From the NCBI GenBank assembly GCA_034440575.1, contig JAOTOL010001476.1, positions 275,501 to 339,500 on the forward strand: DNA of 64,000 bases, read 5' to 3'. Each line of letters starts with the position of its first letter. The first letter of the stretch is position 1. Shown in pieces: positions 24,335 through 63,405 of this stretch. The DNA is from Imbricaverruca yamaguchii. Taxonomy: Eukaryota > Arthropoda > Thecostraca > Neoverrucidae. The notes under the pieces were generated by a model, which was given only the letters and a program-made list of their open reading frames with translations, had not been told where the DNA came from and searched no databases. The translations under genes and the position numbers were made by a program.

Positions 24335-24730
24335 GCAAGCGACACACCATTAGGGCCGCTGGACAGACCACGGGTCTCGTGTGCTTCAGACGTAGGTCGG
24401 ACCACACACCATTAGGGCCGCTGGACGGACCGAGGGTCTCCTGAGCTTCGTTAGTTAGTTAGTTATTTTGCTTTAGGGCGCATCGACCAGGGTTGATCAT
24501 TCGCGCCCATCTCCTGAGCTTCAGACGTAGGATCGGACCCCACACCATTAGGGCCGCTGGACAGACCACGGGTCTCTAGTGCTGCAGACGTAGGATCGGA
24601 CCCCACACCATTAGGGCCACTGGACGGACCACGGGTCTCTAGTGCTGCAGACGTAGGATCGGACGCCACGCCATTAGGGCCGCTGGACGGACCGAGGGTC
24701 TCCTGAGCTTCAGACACAGGATTTGACGGC
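24335..24730. repeat. ~63-bp minisatellite interrupted by a SINE tail
   Basis: About six units with the cores CACACCATTAGGGCCGCTGG and GACCACGGGTCTC. At 24447-24505 a SINE-type tail (TTAGTTAGTTATTTTGCTTTAGGGCGCATCGACC...) interrupts one unit. Confidence 0.9.
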
Positions 24731-30690: not shown

Positions 30691-30869
30691 CGTTGAACTG
30701 GAGTTCATGGATCGGGTGGTGGTTCCAGGGTTCACGCAACAAGCTCTGCTTAGCAATAGAACCCTGGTTCCTCAAGCCACCCCAACAAAAACTCGGATTA
30801 AATTTATTTTATAAAAAAAAACAATGTCTGAGACAGCAGACAGTGTCCGGTGACGTCAGGTCCTGTGTC

Positions 30870-50623: not shown

Positions 50624-50721
50624 TCAGTCTTCCGGTGGCAGGTGCGCCTCCTGCTTCCGCAGAATGATCCGGATGAGTTTGGTCGGGTACAGCCTCTCCA
50701 GAATACCGCGCAGGTTCTCCT
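50624..50721 (-). CDS. INTS15: INTS15 terminal exon with TGA
   Basis: 98 nt. Acceptor CTCTTTCCTCAG|AGGAG; encodes ENLRGILERLYPTKLIRIIL then RKQEAHLPPED and TGA. Two decayed partial copies of the acceptor and exon start lie just upstream, at about 50795-50840 and 50850-50885. Confidence 0.85.
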
Positions 50722-53700
50722 CTGAGGAAAGAGGTCAGGTCAACTACAACTGCTTAATACAACTCAAGTTTTCCTTAGAGGCCAGAGGGCAGGAATTATC
50801 GGTCAGCTATAATCCCTCCAATATTCCACGCACGTTCTCACCTGGGCACGTCAATTCAGCTATACTTCTCCAGAATATGGAGAAGCTACACTTCAAAAGG
50901 GGTGACGTACAGCTATAATTCACCCCTTCGTCCGACCACCCACGTCTGCACGTCTGGTAGGCTGTGCCGCCACAGCCGCCCGACCACTCACGTCTGGTAG
51001 GCTGTGCCGCCCGACCACTCACGTCTGGCAGGCTGTGTCGCCCGACCACTCACGTCTGGCAGGCTGTGTCGCCCGACCACTCACGTCTGGCAGGCTGTGC
51101 CGCCCGACCACTCACGTCTGGTAGGCTGTGCCGCCCGACCACTCACGTCTGGCAGGCTGTGCCGCCCGACACTCACGTCTGGAAGTTTCGCCCGACCACT
51201 CACGTCTGGTAGGCTGTGCCGCCCGACCACTCACGTTTGGTAGGCTGTGCCGCCCGACCACTCACCTTTAAAGGGTTTTTCTGCCAACGCCCGACCACTC
51301 ACGTCTGGCAGGCTGTGCCGTCCGACCACTCACGTCTGGTAGGCTGTGCCGTCCGACCACTCACGTCTGGCAGGCTGTGTCGCCCGACCACTCACGTCTG
51401 GCCTGGTAGGCTGTGCCGCCCGACATCACGTCTGGTAGGCTTGTCCCGACCGGCTGTTGCCCGACCACTCACGTCTTGCACGTCTGGTAGGCTGTGCCGC
51501 CCGACCACTCACGTCTGGTAGGCTGTGCCGCCCGACCACTCACGTCTGGTAGGCTGTGCCGCCCGACCACTCACGTCTGGTAGGCTGTGCCGCCCGACCA
51601 CTCACGTCTGGTAGGCTGTGCCGCCCGACCACTCACGTCTGGTAGGCTGTGCCGCCCGACCACTCACGTCTGCCCGTCTGGTAGGCTGCGCCGTCGAGCG
51701 CGTCAGCCTGGCAGGCCACCTGGAACAGCTGGGCCATGCGGTCGAGCGCCAGCAGACAGCCGCCGGTGGGCTGGACGGCGGCGGCGCCAGGGCCCGGCCG
51801 GCCGCACCCGGCCTCCACCAGGTGGTCGGCCAGTCGCGACAGCTCGGCGAACGTCACCCAGGCCGGCTCGTCGGGCCGCCGGCACTCCGACTGCGGCTGC
51901 TGTGGCGGCGACACGGGGGTACTGTCAGCGAGCTGACCACGGGGGTACTGTCAGCGGACCGACCACGGGGGTACTGTCAGCGGGCCGACCACGGGGGGAC
52001 TGTCAGCGAGCTGACCACGGGGGGGGCTGTCGGCGGACCGACCACGGGGGTACTGTCAGCGGACCGACCACGGGGGGCACTGTCAGCTGACCGACCACGG
52101 GGGACTGTCAGTGGACTGACCATGGGGGTACTGTCAGGGACCGATCACGGGGGTACTGTCAGCGGGCCGACTACGGGGGTACTGTCAGCAGACCGACCAC
52201 GGGGACTGTCCGCGGACCGACCACGGGGGACTGTCAGCGGACCGACCACGGGGGTAATGTAAGCGGACCGACCACGGGGTACTGTCAGCGGGCCGACCAC
52301 GGGGGGGGGCTGTCAGCGGACCGACCACGGGGGTACTGTCAGCGGACCGACCACGGGGGTACTGTCAGCGGACCGACCACGGGGGGACTGTCAGCGGACC
52401 GACCACGGGGGTACTGTCAGCGGACCGACCACGGGGGTACTGTCAGCGGACCGACCACGGGGGGCTGTCAGCGGACCGACCACGGGGGACTGTCAGCGGG
52501 CCGACCACGGGGGGGGCTGTCAGCGGACCGACCACGGGGGTACTGTCAGCGGACCGACCACGGGGGTACTGTCAGCGGACCGACCACGGGGGTACTGTCA
52601 GCGGACCGACCACGGGGGTACTGTCAGCGGACCGACCACGGGGGTACTGTCAGCGGACCGACCACGGGGGGGCTGTCAGCGGACCGACCACGGGGGTACT
52701 GTCAGCGGGCCGACCACGGGGGGGCTGTCAGCGGACCGACCACGGGGGGTACTGTCAGCGGACCGACCACGGGGGTACTGTCAGCGGACCGACCACGGGG
52801 GGTACTGTCAGCGGACCGACCACGGGGGACTGTCAGCGGACCGACCACGGGGGGACTGTCAGCGGACCGACCACGGGGGGTACTGTCAGCGGACCGACCA
52901 CGGGAGGTACTGTCAGCGGACCGACCACGGAGGTACTGTCAACGGACCGACCACGGGGGGACTGTCAGCAGACCGACCACGGGGGGACTGTCAGTGGACT
53001 GACCATGGAGGTACTGTCAGGGGACCGACCACGGGGGTACTGTCAGCGGGCCGACTACGGGGGGACTGTCCGCGGACCGACCACGGGGGTACTGTCAGCG
53101 GACCGACCACGGGGGACTGTCAGCGGACCGACCACGGGGGTACTGTCAACGGACCGACCACGGGGTACTGTCAGCGGACCGACCACGGGGGGGACTGTCA
53201 GCGGACCGACCACGGGGGGACTGTCAGCGGACCGACCACGGGGGGGACTGTCAGCGGACCGACCACGGGAGGACTGTCAGCGGACCGACCACGGGGGGGT
53301 GTCAGCGGACCGACCACGGGGGGACTGTCAGCGGACCGACCACGGGGGTACTGTCAGCGGACCGACCACGGGGGGTACTGTCAGCGGACCGACCACGGGG
53401 GACTGTCAGCGGACCGACCACGGGGGACTGTCAGTGGACTGACCATGGGGTACTGTCAGGGGACCGACCACGGGGGTACTGTCAGCGGACCGACCACGGG
53501 GGACTGTCAGCGGACCGATCACGGGGGACTGTCAGCGGACCGACCACGGGGGACTGTCAGCGGACCGACCACGGGGGACTGTCAGCGGACCGACCACGGG
53601 GGGTACTGTCAGCGGACCGACCACGGAGGTACTGTCAGCGGACCGACCACGGGGGGACTGTCAGCGGACCGACCACGGGGGACCGGGGTACTGTCAGCGG

Positions 53701-56700
53701 ACCGACCACGGGGGTACTGTCAGCGGACCGACCACGGGGGGACTGTCAGCGGACCGATCACGGGGGACTGTCAGCGGACCGACCACGGGGGTACTGTCAG
53801 CGGACCGACCACGGGGACTGTCAGCAGACCGACCACGGGGGTACTGTCAGCGGGCCGACCACGGGGGGCTGTCAGCGGACCGACCACGGGGGTACTGTCA
53901 GCGGACCGACCACGGGGGGGTACTGTCAGCGGACCGACCACGGGGGACTGTCAGCGGACCGACCACGGGGGGGACTGTCAGCGGACCGACCACGGGGGAC
54001 TGTCAGCGGACCGACCACGGGGGGACTGTCAGCGGACCGACCACGGGGGACTGTCAGCGGACCGACCACGGGGGGGGGACTGTCAGCGGACCGACCACGG
54101 GGGACTGTCAGCGGACCGACCACGGGGGGTACTGTCAGCGGACCGACCACGGGGATACTGTCAGCGGACCGACCACGGGGGTACTGTCAGCGGACCGACC
54201 ACGGGGATACTGTCAGCGGACCGACCACGGGGGGTACTGTCAGCGGACCGACCACGGGGGGGACTATCAGCGGGCCGACCACGGGTGGACTGTCAGCGGA
54301 CCGACCACGGGGGGTACTGTCAGCGGGCCGACCACGGGGGGTACTGTCAGCGGACCGACCACGGGGGGGTACTGTCAGCGGACCGACCACGGGGGACTGT
54401 CAGCGGACCGACCACGGGGGTACTGTCAGCGGACCGACCACGGAGGTGCTGTCAGCGGACTGACCACAGGGGACTGTCAGCTGACCGACCACAGGGGACT
54501 GTCAGCGGACCGACCACGGGGGTACTGTCAGCGGACCGACCACGGGGGTACTGTCAGCGGACCGACCACGGGGGTACTGTCAGCGGACCGACCACGGGGG
54601 TACTGTCAGCGGACCGACCACGGGGGGTACTGTCAGCGGACCGACCACGGGGGACTGTCAGCGGACCGACCACGGGGGACTGTCAGCGGACTGACCACGG
54701 GGGTACTGTCAGCGGACCGACCACGGGGGTACTGTCAGCGGACCGACCACGGGGGTACTGTCAGCGGGCCGACCACGGGGGTACTGTCAGCGGACCGACC
54801 ACGGGGGTACTGTCAGCGGACCGACCACGGGGGTACTGTCAGCGGACCGACCACGGGGGTGCTGTCAGCGGACCGACCACGGGGGACCGTCAGCGGACCG
54901 ACCACGGGGATACTGTCAGCGGGCCGACCACGGGGGACTGTCAGCGGACCGACCACGGGGGACTGTCAGCGGACCGACCACGGGGGGACTGTCAGCGGAC
55001 CGACCACGGGGATACTGTCAGCGGACCGACCAAGGGGGGACTGTCAGCGGACCGACCACGGGGGACTGTCAGCGGACCGACCACGGGGACTGTCAGCGGA
55101 CCGATCACGGGGGTACTGTCAGCGGACCGACCACGGGGGACTGTCAGCGGACCGACCACGGGGGGACTGTCAGCGGACCGACCACGGGGGACTGTCAGCG
55201 GGCTGACCACGGGGGTACTGTCAGCGGACCGACTACGGGGGGGGGACTGTCAGCGGACCGACCACGGGGGGACTGTCAGCGGACCGACCACTGGGGGACT
55301 GTCAGCGGACCGACCACGGGGGTACTGTCAGCGGACTGACCACGGGGGGGGACTGTCAGCGGACAGACCACGGGGGTACTGTCAGCGGACTGACCACGGG
55401 GGTACTGTCAGCGGACCGACCACGAGGGTACTGTCAGCGGACCGACCACTGGGGGACTGTCAGCGGACCGACTACGGGGGGGTACTGTCAGCGGACCGAC
55501 CACGGGGGTACTGTCAGCGGACCACCCACGTGGGCACGAAGCGAGTGCTACAGGGACGGATGCGGTGGTGGATACGGATGCGGTGGAGGAGGGGGAATCG
55601 CTGCCAATATGGGCACCGATGACGTGGAGGAACCGCTGGAACGGACATAGGAAAACACGGGGTGCTACCAAGGCCGACACAGATGGCACGGCTTGGGACG
55701 TATGCAGGGAAATTCATGCTGCGATTACGGGAAGTCTCTTACGTGACAATGACAATGAGGCCCAGCCCCCATTTTGAAAGAAAAACATTCACGCTCCAAA
55801 ATGTTGTAAGTGAAAACAGGATTTTCCAGACAAAAGGAAAGCAATCAGTCTTGTTCATCACTACGCTTGTCGGCAAAACATCGCAGCAATTAATATTATC
55901 ATGTCCTGCTCCTTGTATTATCTGAAGATTTCCCGTCACACAACACAAGCTTACAGCTTTGGTTTATCCAAGTCAATAACTCGAATAACCGTGAAGATAT
56001 TTGATATAGGTAAGTAGGCAGGCACCTACATAGTCAGGTAATACCAACTCTCATATTTTCTAGCCAAACACGCAGTCAATTCCATCCGGATAGCAGCGAA
56101 GAGCTTTAAAGAAAATCCTTCGTGGAATAAAAAAATCACTGCGCTCCGCTAACCAAATAAAGGAATTCACCTTTACCAGCCCGACCGCGTACGAAGGTCC
56201 GTTCTTGGATTCAATGGATTCACCGCTCTCCAGTTCCCACTCCGGCCGGAGTTATTTAAACCATTGCCACGAAAAGCCATGGATAATGCATTTCTTTTTG
56301 CTTCTTTGGAGAACATGTTCTGCATCAAGTGGGATAGATAAAACCGTTCACATTTGCATTATTAAGCAGTCAGGAGAGCTATACATAAAAGATATCGGAA
56401 GGATTTTCCCCATGAAAATTGCCTGAATGGTACCAAAACGTTCCTAAAACCTGCTAACACTGCTCCAAAATGAAGCTCCATAGAACCAAAAATTTCACCT
56501 TTTTTTCGATTTCATGACTTATATTGTTTCCGAATTTCATCAACAAGCGGGAATAGTTGCATTTATGCCACTCCGACCACGAGGTTTCCCTACTACGGAC
56601 AAATTCAGATTTACGTGTGTTGACCTAATCTTCTACACTCTTATAAGCCTCATTCTGATCCAATTATTAATTTCTTCCCATAATCCTGATTATTATTAGT

Positions 56701-59700
56701 TGAGAAAAAGGTTCCCTGTAATTCTCTTGGCAATTTTCTCCAACTTATTTTCATTTTTTGGTATTTCATAGCAATCATGGTGCGAAATGAGACGCTAATT
56801 TCCTCTCGTCTGTGACGATAGTATGTTTTACAGCGGCAATTTGTCCGCCCGTCTAGTCGCTTTTCATCCTTCCAAGTCATTCTTTGCTGCAACTGAACAT
56901 TCCCGACATGAACTAAAAGGTGCATCGAAATACACTTAATATTAATAAGAATTGACTTGCACAATTTTTCTCAGCTTTCTCATTTGAATAAAAAAATTGT
57001 TTCATGGTCGAGAGAATAAAAGACTTTAGACGAATTGTTTTAGTATAACTTGCCTTAAACCATTATGTATTCAGAAACCCATGTCCCGAAGCAACATTTT
57101 AGACCCTCCCATATATTAGTCGGTGCACGAACGTCCTGCTCTTGAGGTATGTTGTGAATTCGTATTAATTGTGCGGTGTTGTTATGTCAGGAGTGACAGG
57201 TATTGATATATAAACTTGGTTGTCATCGATTAAGTATAATTTTGTGATCATTTTCTCTACCATTGCTCAGGAAGTTGCCTTATAAGTCATCCACGTAACG
57301 TGGATGACTTCAAACGACGATGTGTGGTGGACCTCATCTGGTTGTCTGTGAGACACTAGGATAGGAACCTAACAAATGATTTGAAGGCGTTTTATTCTTG
57401 AAGAAGAAGAATCTCAGGTTATTTTACGACGCATTCAGCCTCAAGGTTGTATAGCGCCGCCACCCTATATCACACCGATTGGTCGTGGGTGGACTATGCA
57501 AATGCCGCCGGCCGCGAGATTCGAGTCCCACGCTCCGCCATCTAAGCTAGCGAGGCCCCCGGGTTTGTATTCTTCATTCCAGGAAACATCACTGCATTTT
57601 TCAAAATGTACACAATTCATTATTTATAAAATGTATATACTCCATTACTTGGTACCTCAATATACACCCCATAATTTGGCAAACTGGGAAATTACACACT
57701 CCATTACATGGTGCTTCTCAAGATTATACGCTCCATACTCTGGCAAGCCAAAAAATTATGCACTCCGAATCCAAGACCGAGAAGTGAAAATCCAACAGTG
57801 GTCTGTGGTGACCTGTGATGACCTCAACCAGTCTGTGGTGACCTGTGGTGACCTCCACCAGTCCGTGGTGCCCTGTGACCAGTGGCGGCGGCCTCACCAG
57901 CAGACTAGTGATGAGCAGGAAGTGGATGCGCGCCATGGGCGCCGCCAGGTGCGCCAGTTTGGCCTGCGACTCGAGGCCGCAGTAGACGGTCCAGCGCCAC
58001 AGGCCGGCCACCGGACAGCAGGCGTAGTCGGCCGGCGACCAGCGCAGCGGCACCAGCGGCAGCGGCCACGGCTCGGCCGCCGACTGGGACTCCCACCAGC
58101 GCAGGATCTGCTGACGGCCGGCACAGTCATACTGCCGCCACATACAGCTGCCAGCCGGCAGTCATACTGCCGCCACATACAGCTGCCAGCCGCCACAGTC
58201 ACACTGCTGTCGTACTGCCGCCACAGTCATACTGCTGTCGTACTGCCGCCACATACTGCTGTCGTACTGCCGCCAGCCGCCACAGTCATACTGCTGCCAC
58301 ATAAGGCCGCCACAGTCATACTGCTGTCGTGTTGCCGCCAGTCATACTGCTGTCGTACTGCCGCGACAGTCATACTGCTGTCGTACTGCCGCCACAGTCA
58401 TACTGCTGTCGTACTGCCGCCACAGTCATACTGCTGTCGTACTGCCGCCACAGTCATACTGCTGTCGTACTGCCGCCACATACTGCTGTCGTACTGCCGC
58501 CAGCCGCCACAGTCATACTGCTGCCACATACAGCTGCCAGCCGCCACAGTCATACTGCTGTCGTACTGCCGCCACATACTGCTGTCGTACTGCTGCCAGC
58601 CGGCACAGTCATACTGCTGCGTACAGCCGCCACAGTCATACTGCTGTCGTGTTGCCGCCAGTCATACTGCTGTCGTACTGCCGCAACCCGGCACAGTCAT
58701 ACTGCTGTCGTACTACCGCCACATACTGCTGTCGTACTGCCGCCAGTCGCGCTGTCATACTGCCGCCACGTACTGCCGCCACCCGGCACAGTCATACTGC
58801 TGTCGTACTGCCGCCCACATACTGCTGTCGTACTGCCGCCAGTCATACTGCTGTCGTACTGCCGCCAGCCGGCACAGTCATACTGCTGTCGTACTGCCGC
58901 CAGCCGGCACAGTCATACTGCTGTCGTACTGCCGCCAGTCGGCACAGTCATACTGCTGTCGTACTGCCGCCAGCCGGCACAGTCATACTGCTGTCGTACT
59001 GCCGCCAGCCGGCACAGTCATACTGCTGTCGTACTGCCGCACAGTCATACTGCTGTCGTACTGCCGCCACAGTCATACTGCTGTCGTACTGCCGCACAGT
59101 CATACTGCTGTCGTACTGCCGCCACAGTCATACTGCTGTCGTACTGCCGCCACTGGTCGACGCCACCACAGTCATACTGCCGTCGTACTGCCGCCAGTCA
59201 TACTGCTGTCGTACTGCCGCCACATACTGCTGTCGTACTGCTGCCACCCGGCACAGTCATACTGCCGTCGTACTGTCGCCAGCCGCCACAGTCATACTGC
59301 TGTCGTACTGCTGCCAGCCGCCACAGTCATACTGCTGTCGTACTGCCGTCAGCCGGCACAGTCATACTGCTGTCGTACTGCCGCCACATACTGCTGTCGT
59401 ACTGCCGCCAGCCGGCACAGTCATACTGCTGTCGTACTGCCGTCAGCCGGCACAGTCATACTGCTGTCGTACTGCCGCCACATACTGCTGTCGTACTGCT
59501 GCCACCCGGCACAGTCATACTGCGCCACATACAGCCGCCAGCCGCCACAGTTATACTGCTGTCGTGTTGCCGCCAGTCATACTGCTGTCGTACTGCCGCG
59601 ACATACTGCCGCAACCGGCACAGTCATACTGCTGTCGTACTACCGCCACATACTGCTGTCGTACTGCCGCCAGTCATACTGCTGTCGTACTGCCGCCACA

Positions 59701-62700
59701 TACTGCTGTCGTACTGCCGCCAGTCATACTGCTGTCGTACTGCCGCCACATACTCGCAACCCGGCACAGTCATACTGCTGTCGTACTCCGCCACATACTG
59801 CTGTCGTACTGCCGCCAGTCATACTGCTGTCGTACTGCCGCCAGCCGGCACAGTCATACTGCTGTCGTACTGCCGCCAGCCGCCACAGTCATACTGCTGT
59901 CGTACTGCCGCCAGCCGGCACAGTCATACTGCTGTCGTACTGCCGCCAGCCGGCACAGTCATACTGCTGTCGTACTGCCGCCCATACAGCCAGCCGCCAC
60001 AGTCATACTGCTGTCGTACTGCCGCCAGCCGCCACAGTCATACTGCTGTCGTACTGCCGCCAGCCGGCACAGTCATACTGCTGTCGTACTGCCGCCACAG
60101 TCATACTGCTGTCGTACTGCCGCTAGTCATACTGCTGTCGTACTGCCGCCACCACAGTCATACTGCTGTCGTACTGCCGCCACAGTCATACTGCTGTCGT
60201 ACTCGCCGCCGGCACAGTCATACTGCTGTCGTACTGCCGCCACAGTCATACTGCTGTCGTACTGCCGCCAGCATACTGCTGTCGTACTGCCGCCAGCCGG
60301 CACAGTCATACTGCTGTCGTACTGCCGCCAGCCGGCACAGTCATACTGCTGTCGTACTGCCGCCACATACTGCTGTCGTACTGCCACCCGCCGGCACAGT
60401 CATACTGCTGTCGTACTGCCGTCAGCCGGCACAGTCATACTGCTGTCGTACTGCCGTCAGCCGGCACAGTCACACTGCTGTCGTACTGCCGCCAGCCGGC
60501 AGTCATACTGCTGTCTTACTGCCGCCACATACTGCTGTCGTACTGCTGCCAGCCGGCACAGTCATACTGCTGTCGTGGCCCGAGGGGGAGCACCGACTAT
60601 TAAGTCGCCAGCCCCCTGTACAGCTCCCCATGCAGTCCAGAGCACCGACTGTCCAGTCGCCAGCCCCCTGTACAGCTCCCCATGCAGTCCAGAGCACCGA
60701 CTGTCCAGTCGCCAGCCCCCTGTACAGCTCCCCATGCAGTCCAGAGCACCGACTGTCCAGTCGCCAGCCCCCTGTACAGCTCCCCATACAGTCCAGAGCA
60801 CCGACTGTCCAGTCGCCAGCCCCCTCTACAGCTCCCCATGCAGTCCAGAGCACCGACTGTCCAGTCGCCAGCCCCCTGTACAGCTCCCCATGCAGTCCAG
60901 AGCACCGACTGTCCAGTCGTCAGCCCCCTCTACACCCCCATGCAGCAGCGGATACTTTCCCGGATGGGACACACTGAGCTCGTTAGTTAGTTATTTGGGC
61001 TTCAGGGCGCTTCGACCAGAACTGGGACACACTGAGCTCGTTAGTTAGTTATTTGGGCTTCAGGGCGCTTCGACCAGAACTGGGGACACTAGCTCGTTAG
61101 TTGTTATTTGGGTTGGGTATTGAGCTCGTTAGTTAGTTATTTGGGCTTCAGGGCGCTTCGACCAGAACTGGGACACACTGAGCTCGTTAGTTAGTTATTT
61201 GGGCTTCAGGGCGCTTCGACCAGAACTGGGACACACTGAGCTCGTTAGTTAGTTATTTGGGCTTCAGGGCGCTTCGACCAGAACTGGGACACACTGAGCT
61301 CGTTAGTTAGTTATTTGGGCTTCAGGGCGCTTCGACCAGAACTGGGACACACTGAGCTCGTTAGTTAGTTATTTGGGCTTCAGGGCGCTTCGACCAGAAC
61401 TGGGACACACTGAGCCGGAACCTTCCAGCTCAAAAGACGCGTACAGCGCGGCAGCCGGGGCCGCACCTGTCTGACGAGCGGCAGCGGCGGCGGGCCGCAC
61501 GCGCGGGTCCGAGTACAGGTGAGCGGCGGCCGTCAGCAGGCAGACGGTGAGCGTCTCGGACAGGTCGGGCAGACGGTCGGTCGGCGCGTCGGCGCACTCG
61601 CAGCCCAGGTGGTCGGCGATCACCACCTCCGTCAGGCCGGAGGCACGGCGCCGACGTGCAGCCCAGACTCTGCGGCACAACATGGGGCGAATCAGCCCAG
61701 ACTCTGCCGCACAATCCGCGGCGAATCAGCCCAGACTCTGCCGCACAACGTGAGGCGAATCAGCCCAGACTCTGCCGCACAACGTGAGGCGAATCAGCCC
61801 AGACTCTGCAGCACATGGGGCGAATCAGCCCAGACTCTGCAGCACAACATGAGGCGAATCAGCCCAGACTCTGCAGCACAACATGGGGCGAATCAGCCCA
61901 CACTCTGCCGCACAATGCGCGGCGAATCAGCCCAGACTCTGCCGCACAACATGAGGCGAATCAGCCCAGACTCTGCCGCACAACATGAGGCGAATCAGCC
62001 CAGACTCTGCCACAAAATGCGCGGCGAATCAGCCCAGACTCTGCGCACAACATGGGCGAATCAGCCCAGACTCTGCCGCACAATGCGCGGCGAATCAGCC
62101 CAGACTCTGCCGCACAATGCGCGGCGAATCAGCCCAGACTCTGCAGCACAACATGGGGCGAATCAGCCCAGACTCTGCCGCACAATGCGCGGCGAATCAG
62201 CCCAGACTCTGCAGCACAACATGGGGCGAATCAGCCCAGACTCTGCGGCACAGTATAAGGCGAATCAGCCCAGACTCTGTCGCACAACGTGAGGCGAATC
62301 AGCCCAGACTCTACCGCACAATATGCGGCGAATCAGCCTAGACTCTGTCACACAGCATGAGGCGGATCAAACCAGACTCTGCGGCTATGACTTCTTGTCT
62401 ACACTTGCACAAGGGCGAAGTGCACCGTCGAAAACAATGCTTAATTGTTCTCAGGCTATTCGTAGGCAGCGCATCTCATCCCACATCACATGAGAACAAG
62501 GGTGACTGCAACAACCCCGTGTTACCCGCATCCAGTGTCCGGCGGCGTCCAGGGTGGTGGCGTTGGCGGTGGACACTGCCAGCGACACGAGCCGCGTGAG
62601 CAGCGTGACGCGCCGGCTGGCGGCGGCCGCCCGCTGCACGCGCTCCTCGTCACAGTCGCCGCGGCCCGGGCGGCGCGCCAGCTCGCGCCACTGCTGCTGA

Positions 62701-63015: not shown

Positions 63016-63227
63016 GAGAACGCGGAAGTAGGAGATAACGAGTCTCAGGTCATGTCAGGTCATGTCAGGTCATGTCAGCGAGGTCGGCTGTTCAGGGCTG
63101 TAGAGGACAACAGCAAGTAGCGGCAGGAAGCGGCAGAAGAACGTGGCAGTAGGGGAGAACGAATCTCAGCACGGAGTGTTGATGAGTCTACACCAAAACA
63201 TGCAAATTGGCACACAATGTTGTTGTT

Positions 63228-63405
63228 TGTTTATTGGTTGGTTCACGACACACTTTATGCACATTCACGGCTAATGGCGCCGCCCACACTGTTTCGCCGG
63301 TGGGCCGTGGGATTGGGAAAACCCTGAGTGGCGCTAGAGTCGAACCCGGGACCTTTGGTATCCATAGCCCGACACATTAACCACTCGGCCATCCCGCCCC
63401 AAAGT
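63228..63405 (-). mobile_element. tRNA-derived SINE, second family
   Basis: In minus sense the head GGCGGGATGGCCGAGTGGTT resembles a tRNA-Ser/Leu D-arm and CCCGGGTTCGACTCTAGCG is the B box. The body is CCCACGGCCCACCGGCGAAA with a GTGTCGTGAACCAACCAATA tail. A 5'-truncated copy is at 42.24 kb. Confidence 0.8.

Follow-up and report, generated by a model that had tools for sequence, protein, structure and literature searches.

A minisatellite at an exon boundary of barnacle INTS15 and its likely link to a dispersed transposon-like repeat

In the gene INTS15 of the barnacle Imbricaverruca yamaguchii, a 31-bp minisatellite fills much of the last intron and repeats, in unit after unit, the end of predicted exon 5 together with a GTGAGT splice donor. 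INTS15 is encoded on the minus strand of the window that we analyzed, a stretch of 64,000 nt (contig JAOTOL010001476.1, positions 275,501–339,500), and genome-wide searches covered 767 Mb in 1430 contigs. The structure is a minisatellite of the mirage type, a known kind in which repeat units span an exon boundary. What is new is the likely derivation of the repeat unit, together with the exon tail and its donor, from a dispersed repeat, as judged from sequence comparison: a 15-bp core of the unit recurs at 36 other loci, 18 of which share flanking sequence with at least five others even under the stricter of two counts.

The array and its donors at the end of exon 5

Joined translations of the INTS15 exons, including one exon taken from the neighbouring stretch L011, matched Pfam family PF14964 with an E-value of 1.3e-21 (77.3 bits, passing the gathering cut-off of 27). 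Single exons gave sub-threshold Pfam matches only (E = 0.05 and 0.13), and a structure search with single exons matched no INTS15 structure. A homologue search, which scored the 7990 candidates sharing most words, returned one protein, the uncharacterised P0001 of the barnacle Amphibalanus amphitrite (35% identity over 98% of the query). P0001 is itself INTS15 by Pfam (E = 2.4e-70), and the joined protein aligns with it up to ...LIRIIL. On these comparisons the gene is INTS15, as had been proposed in the sequence-only reading, an earlier annotation made from the letters of the window. The genome search showed it at one locus.

Predicted exon 5 (51,668–51,899; this and all exon and array features below are on the minus strand) is 232 nt long, ends in phase 1 and encodes ...LALDRMAQLFQVACQADALDGAAYQTGR, a model based on the reading frame, the joined Pfam match and homology to P0001. 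The last exon, exon 6 (50,624–50,721), follows the acceptor TTTCCTCAG/AG GAG AAC (a slash marks the splice junction) and closes with the stop TGA, in accordance with the frame and the P0001 alignment. Joining 51,668 to 50,721 preserves the frame (AGA C/AG GAG), and the resulting protein reads ...AYQTGR-Q-ENLRGILERLYPTKLIRIILRKQEAHLPPED-stop; the exon end and its phase thus agree with those given in the sequence-only reading. A donor CAG/GTGGCC at about 51,718, named there as the competing exon end, is unlikely, since it would delete the QVA... segment present in both human and Amphibalanus INTS15.

Tandem Repeats Finder (TRF) placed the array at 50,975–51,672, with a period of 31, 22.7 copies and 84% matches; including a diverged last unit (GTGGGT), the minisatellite reaches down to 50,932 (50,932–51,672). 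On the minus strand, GTGAGT is present 21 times in the array, with the preceding last exon base running from 50,992 to 51,668, and these occurrences comprise one probable true donor and 20 decoys. The candidate true 5' splice site, GAC/GTGAGT at 51,662–51,667, is the sole GTGAGT that would join exon 6 in frame without an earlier stop. The exon tail at 51,668–51,695 (GACGGCGCAGCCTACCAGACGGGCAGAC, encoding DGAAYQTGR) forms the first array unit and contains the core match to the dispersed family. As in mirages, the units therefore span the exon-intron boundary and part of the exon, predicted exon 5 ending within the first unit, and the splice signals (the 21 GTGAGT) lie inside the repeats.

Array units hold the exon-tail core followed by GTGAGTGG. 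The exon's own copy, GGCGCAGCCTACCAGAC-GGGCAGAC-GTGAGTGG, differs from them in a core G instead of A (GGCGCAGCC for GGCACAGCC) and in 8 additional bases (GGGCAGAC) ahead of GTGAGTGG. The sequence-only reading had described the units as about 22 copies of the exon end and its donor. That such an array exists is borne out by the TRF result and the 21 GTGAGT, and the exon-tail core and donor are indeed repeated; the units are not faithful copies of the exon end, and some of them lack an intact GTGAGT: the last unit has GTGGGT, one has GTGATG, and one is a 15-base remnant without a donor. One further unit carries a foreign ...AAAG ahead of its GTGAGT.

Five identical 31-bp units, apparent from the unit listing, directly follow the exon-end unit (51,501–51,655) and are probably the most recently homogenised part of the array. 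Two further units, one in the middle of the array (GTGCAAGAC) and the last (GTGCAGAC), have long forms resembling the exon copy. This pattern would be consistent with an older long unit preserved at the array edges while a shorter unit spread. In the unit at 51,254–51,290, GTTGGCAGAAAAACCCTTTAAAG takes the place of the core ahead of GTGAGTGG, and no other decoy has G at position −1. The usual donor consensus favours G at −1, and by this measure this decoy is probably the strongest of all the array's donors.

The consequences of using a decoy can be read from the frame, with the stop position taken from translations and donor positions and phases from a motif scan. The first decoy lies 31 nt downstream of the exon end and is out of phase. 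Read-through from exon 5 gives ...GRREWSGGTAYQT-stop, and the in-frame TGA starts one base past the exon end that the first decoy would set; every later decoy would therefore include the stop, also the six that are in the right phase, all of which lie downstream of the TGA. With the frame lost at the first decoy and the TGA ahead of all later ones, only the first donor is predicted to yield a full-length protein, and the reading frame is what would penalise decoys here. The sequence-only reading had suggested that decoys are tolerated because each would need a decoy acceptor upstream. This argument fails, because an exon can simply be lengthened by splicing from a donor farther downstream; excerpts of PMC4526556, citing Turri et al. 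1995, describe repeat units in human IFI6 that lie downstream and function as donors.

A dispersed repeat family with the same core

A genome-wide search for the 15-bp core GGCACAGCCTACCAG gave 67 exact matches, compared with one for its reversed control. Twelve of them fall in the INTS15 array and 55 at 36 other loci (L042–L077), all of which were retrieved for comparison. With core units masked, 20 of the 36 loci matched at least eight others; among the remainder, one matched a single member, four formed a second small group and two shared just a 22-bp stretch with each other. This count left the unit tails unmasked. Under the stricter procedure, in which whole unit runs were removed, 18 of the 36 loci share flanks with at least five others and 23 with at least one. 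Longer locus pairs are 69–86% identical over ~400–600 bp, and the longer family copies differ by about 14–31%. When 24 element loci were aligned together, the result was noisy beyond the part that they have in common. The sequence ctgtcacgcaacgcataactgtgaagc stands before the repeat in L054, and cggccagccatagcaaa stands after it in L075. At least ten of the 36 loci contain two or more units in tandem, 30–33 bp apart, and many dispersed copies contain a single exact core unit. In these sequence features the family resembles a non-autonomous mobile element that contains a minisatellite. Fragments matching parts of family copies also occur at 30,739–30,805 and 24,456–24,487 of the window, and at 65,921–65,959 in L011.

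The donor separates the INTS15 units from the rest. At the 36 dispersed loci the runs of units contain no GTGAGT, and the 18-mer CCTACCAGACGTGAGTGG has nine matches in the genome, all inside the INTS15 array (reversed control, 0), so that the GTGAGT version of the unit is found only in INTS15 (9 of 9 matches genome-wide). When the donor positions were left open (pattern CAGCCTACCAGNNGTNANTGGT; reversed control, 0), 17 matches were obtained: the nine in INTS15, with GTGAGT, and eight elsewhere on four contigs, all with GTTATT.

Outside the core, array and family units resemble each other moderately. The 31-bp unit of locus C719 and the window unit are identical at 25 of 31 positions in a gap-free alignment; the C719 locus also has a second array, of period 45 bp, within the same 10 kb (L009, 186–962). 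We held the core constant and shuffled the 16-base tail 5000 times, at loci preselected for holding the core: the best-locus score was reached in 52 shuffles and the mean over loci in 166, with single loci ranging from 40 (L077) and 42 (L076) to 2040 (L066). A test in which the full unit was shuffled (0/5000; 35 other units, including one from L011, scored at best 20 versus 64) was set aside, since choosing its six dispersed units for their core had biased it. The start of the first unit weakly suggests kinship as well: in all ten tandem loci the first matched unit begins with GGCG, as does the exon tail, and the inner units of the window do not.

At the protein level, the segment between QVA and the last conserved motif comprises 30 residues in human, 30 in Amphibalanus and 36 in this gene. 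For the human protein we used the INTS15 chains of the structures 9ep1, 8rbx and 9eof, which we take to be human. In comparison with the human chain, the best single removal of six residues is DGAAYQ (score 74 versus 58), which roughly corresponds to the residues that the core encodes. Because the two outgroups are equal in length, a gain of six residues in this lineage would be the simpler reading.

Origin of the exon end and its donor

We consider it probable, from these comparisons, that the array is an exon-boundary minisatellite whose unit came from the dispersed transposon-like repeat with its 30–33 bp minisatellite. Part of the internal minisatellite of an element would have come to sit at the 3' end of exon 5 in INTS15, where the first unit would have become the last 6–9 codons of the exon; the exon tail at 51,668–51,695 is thus probably of dispersed-repeat origin. 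Substitutions in the unit from GTTATT to GTGAGT would have created the 5' splice site that is now the exon donor. The unit with its donor would then have been propagated through the intron by tandem homogenisation, which would account for the 20 downstream decoys, and splicing would have to choose the first donor. What we infer from the DNA is that the array and the repeats of the family share a common descent, that the events took this order, that these substitutions occurred and that transcripts are spliced at the first donor. It is also possible, and we put it forward tentatively, that a minisatellite brought by a transposon has captured the donor site of a conserved coding exon and that homogenisation keeps regenerating copies of this donor behind the exon, so that the site would be maintained by repeat turnover together with selection on one site.

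Several observations weigh against a transposon origin, the strongest being the missing element flank. No family flank was found beside the INTS15 array, either with 14 loci or when all 36 were compared; the matches at 50–52 kb in this comparison fall within the array and come from unit remnants in three right-hand pieces. The insertion itself is therefore not seen, and the transposon link, likely as it is, stops short of proof, because the array stands without element flanks. With core units masked, nine of the 36 core loci match no other locus. The similarity of the unit tails is moderate (P ~0.01–0.03, at loci selected for the core). The GGCG start is preceded by a degenerate unit in two of the ten tandem loci, and at some loci inner units begin with GGCG too. 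In the protein comparison with Amphibalanus the place of the gap is ambiguous (removal of ENLRGI scores 99, of GAAYQT 91), and the outgroup proteins number two. Single BLAST E-values between minisatellites were dropped as evidence, as the array's own matches elsewhere (E = 1.4e-6 to 7e-4) are equalled or surpassed by those of the neighbouring 26-bp array (E = 2.7e-9 to 1.1e-4; 69–74% identity, on three other contigs). A 301-base search with the array at 61,620–61,920 gave no match elsewhere, although such a search would miss a shared 15-mer and is not a like-for-like control.

These points bear on three other accounts of the array. If the exon end and donor were native to INTS15 and the boundary stretch had simply been tandemly duplicated, the likeness of 15–17 bp to the dispersed family would be coincidental. 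The absence of the family flank fits this account, as does the fact that the donor-bearing unit is private to the INTS15 locus; mirages made from a gene's own boundary are described in amphioxus (in excerpts of PMC3087553), and a second INTS15 array, at 61,659–62,382, repeats an acceptor-like stretch and, searched with 301 bases, has no match elsewhere in the genome. A chance match, however, would need to hit a repeat that is already tandem at the same or nearly the same period, and would also have to fall about where the protein has six extra residues, so we rate this account as unlikely. Less probable still is that a single-unit fragment was exonised as exon end and donor and that the boundary was duplicated only afterwards. 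The seed would again be transposon DNA, so the evidence for a dispersed origin serves equally here, and the many dispersed copies with a single exact core unit suit it; but with at least ten of the 36 loci already multi-unit, a separate duplication step is unneeded. The stricter flank count of 18 and the weaker first-unit evidence shifted our final confidence very slightly toward this sequence of events.

The same evidence bears on the sequence-only reading, in which the INTS15 donor seeded the array. With the core at 36 other loci, 18–20 of them sharing flanks and at least ten in tandem, and with both outgroups six residues shorter, that order of events is not supported and is probably inverted; seeding by the exon end would be conceivable in the improbable case, just described, that this end was already transposon-derived. 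The INTS15 exon end might instead have been picked up by the family, which would equally explain a core common to both. We regard such a capture as very improbable: none of the 36 dispersed loci has GTGAGT in its unit runs, the divergence of ~14–31% among the longer family copies makes the unit look older than the homogeneous array, and human and Amphibalanus INTS15 both lack six residues at the exon end. A transposon-borne unit that acquired its donor at the exon edge remains our preferred reading.

Other arrays of the locus and known exon-boundary minisatellites

Minisatellites are common in this region. Of the 64,000 window bases, 23,637 lie in arrays with a period of at least 9 and a length of at least 60 bp, and six of 11 predicted INTS15 exon edges lie within 30 bp of a minisatellite, versus 8% of 6172 non-array positions (50–66 kb). 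This count was made post hoc on predicted edges (both edges of exon 3 are putative and the start of exon 1 is guessed), and one of the six is the exon 5 array itself. The 5' edge of predicted exon 4 (57,898–58,110), whose own Pfam match is the sub-threshold one at E = 0.13 (INTS15 profile positions 238–282, colinear with exon 5), coincides with the end of another array. The arrays at 58,110–58,277 and 51,912–55,534 lie 0 and 13 bp from the acceptors of exons 4 and 5, respectively. Beside predicted exon 3, the 34-bp array at 61,659–62,382 consists of units with acceptor-like GTGCGGCAG followed by exon-start-like sequence. A 24-bp array of 55 copies in L011 (587–1908) ends ~20 bp ahead of predicted exon 1 and is open in two frames throughout. 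By eye, the minus-strand stretches 63,220–63,400 and 57,430–57,560 resemble tRNA-derived short interspersed nuclear elements (GGCCGAGTGGTTAA... and similar).

Comparable structures are known from few genes. According to excerpts of PMC3087553, mirages in amphioxus affect both 5' and 3' boundaries in Adh3 and in the globin genes BflGb6 and BflGb9, cluster boundaries escape homogenisation, reverse transcription PCR suggests undisturbed splicing, and the generating mechanism is called unclear. The INTS15 units likewise span a predicted exon boundary and carry splice signals. In the amphioxus genes as portrayed there, however, the repeats are duplicates of the gene's own boundary, whereas the core of the INTS15 unit also occurs in a dispersed family, and splicing is predicted here from DNA. 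For human IFI6 (6-16), excerpts of PMC4526556 report that two downstream minisatellite units are used, resulting in three mRNA species. INTS15 resembles it in having donors in minisatellite units downstream of the exon end; unlike in IFI6, use of these units is predicted from the sequence to break the protein.

The seeding of arrays from within a transposon, also a subject of the review PMC9659126, has its own precedent in Tetris of Drosophila virilis, whose internal tandem repeats (TIR-220) seed satellite arrays, as outlined in the available portions of PMC4079207. In both cases a dispersed element has short internal tandem repeats that expand, or would have expanded, into longer arrays. The Tetris arrays covered there are satellite-like, whereas the INTS15 array stands at a coding exon edge, where it probably supplies a splice site. 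The association of variable number tandem repeat length with alternative splicing of pri-miR-137, as summarized in part of PMC6692358, was judged to be a different phenomenon. A limited literature search found exon-boundary minisatellites in amphioxus and one human gene only, and no barnacle or transposon-derived mirage.

The INTS15 array extends exon-boundary minisatellites beyond amphioxus and that single human gene to a barnacle. If the proposed origin is correct, it would show in a concrete case how mobile DNA can provide a single-locus gene with both an exon end and a splice site, and the last intron of barnacle INTS15 would present a natural competition among 21 near-identical donors.
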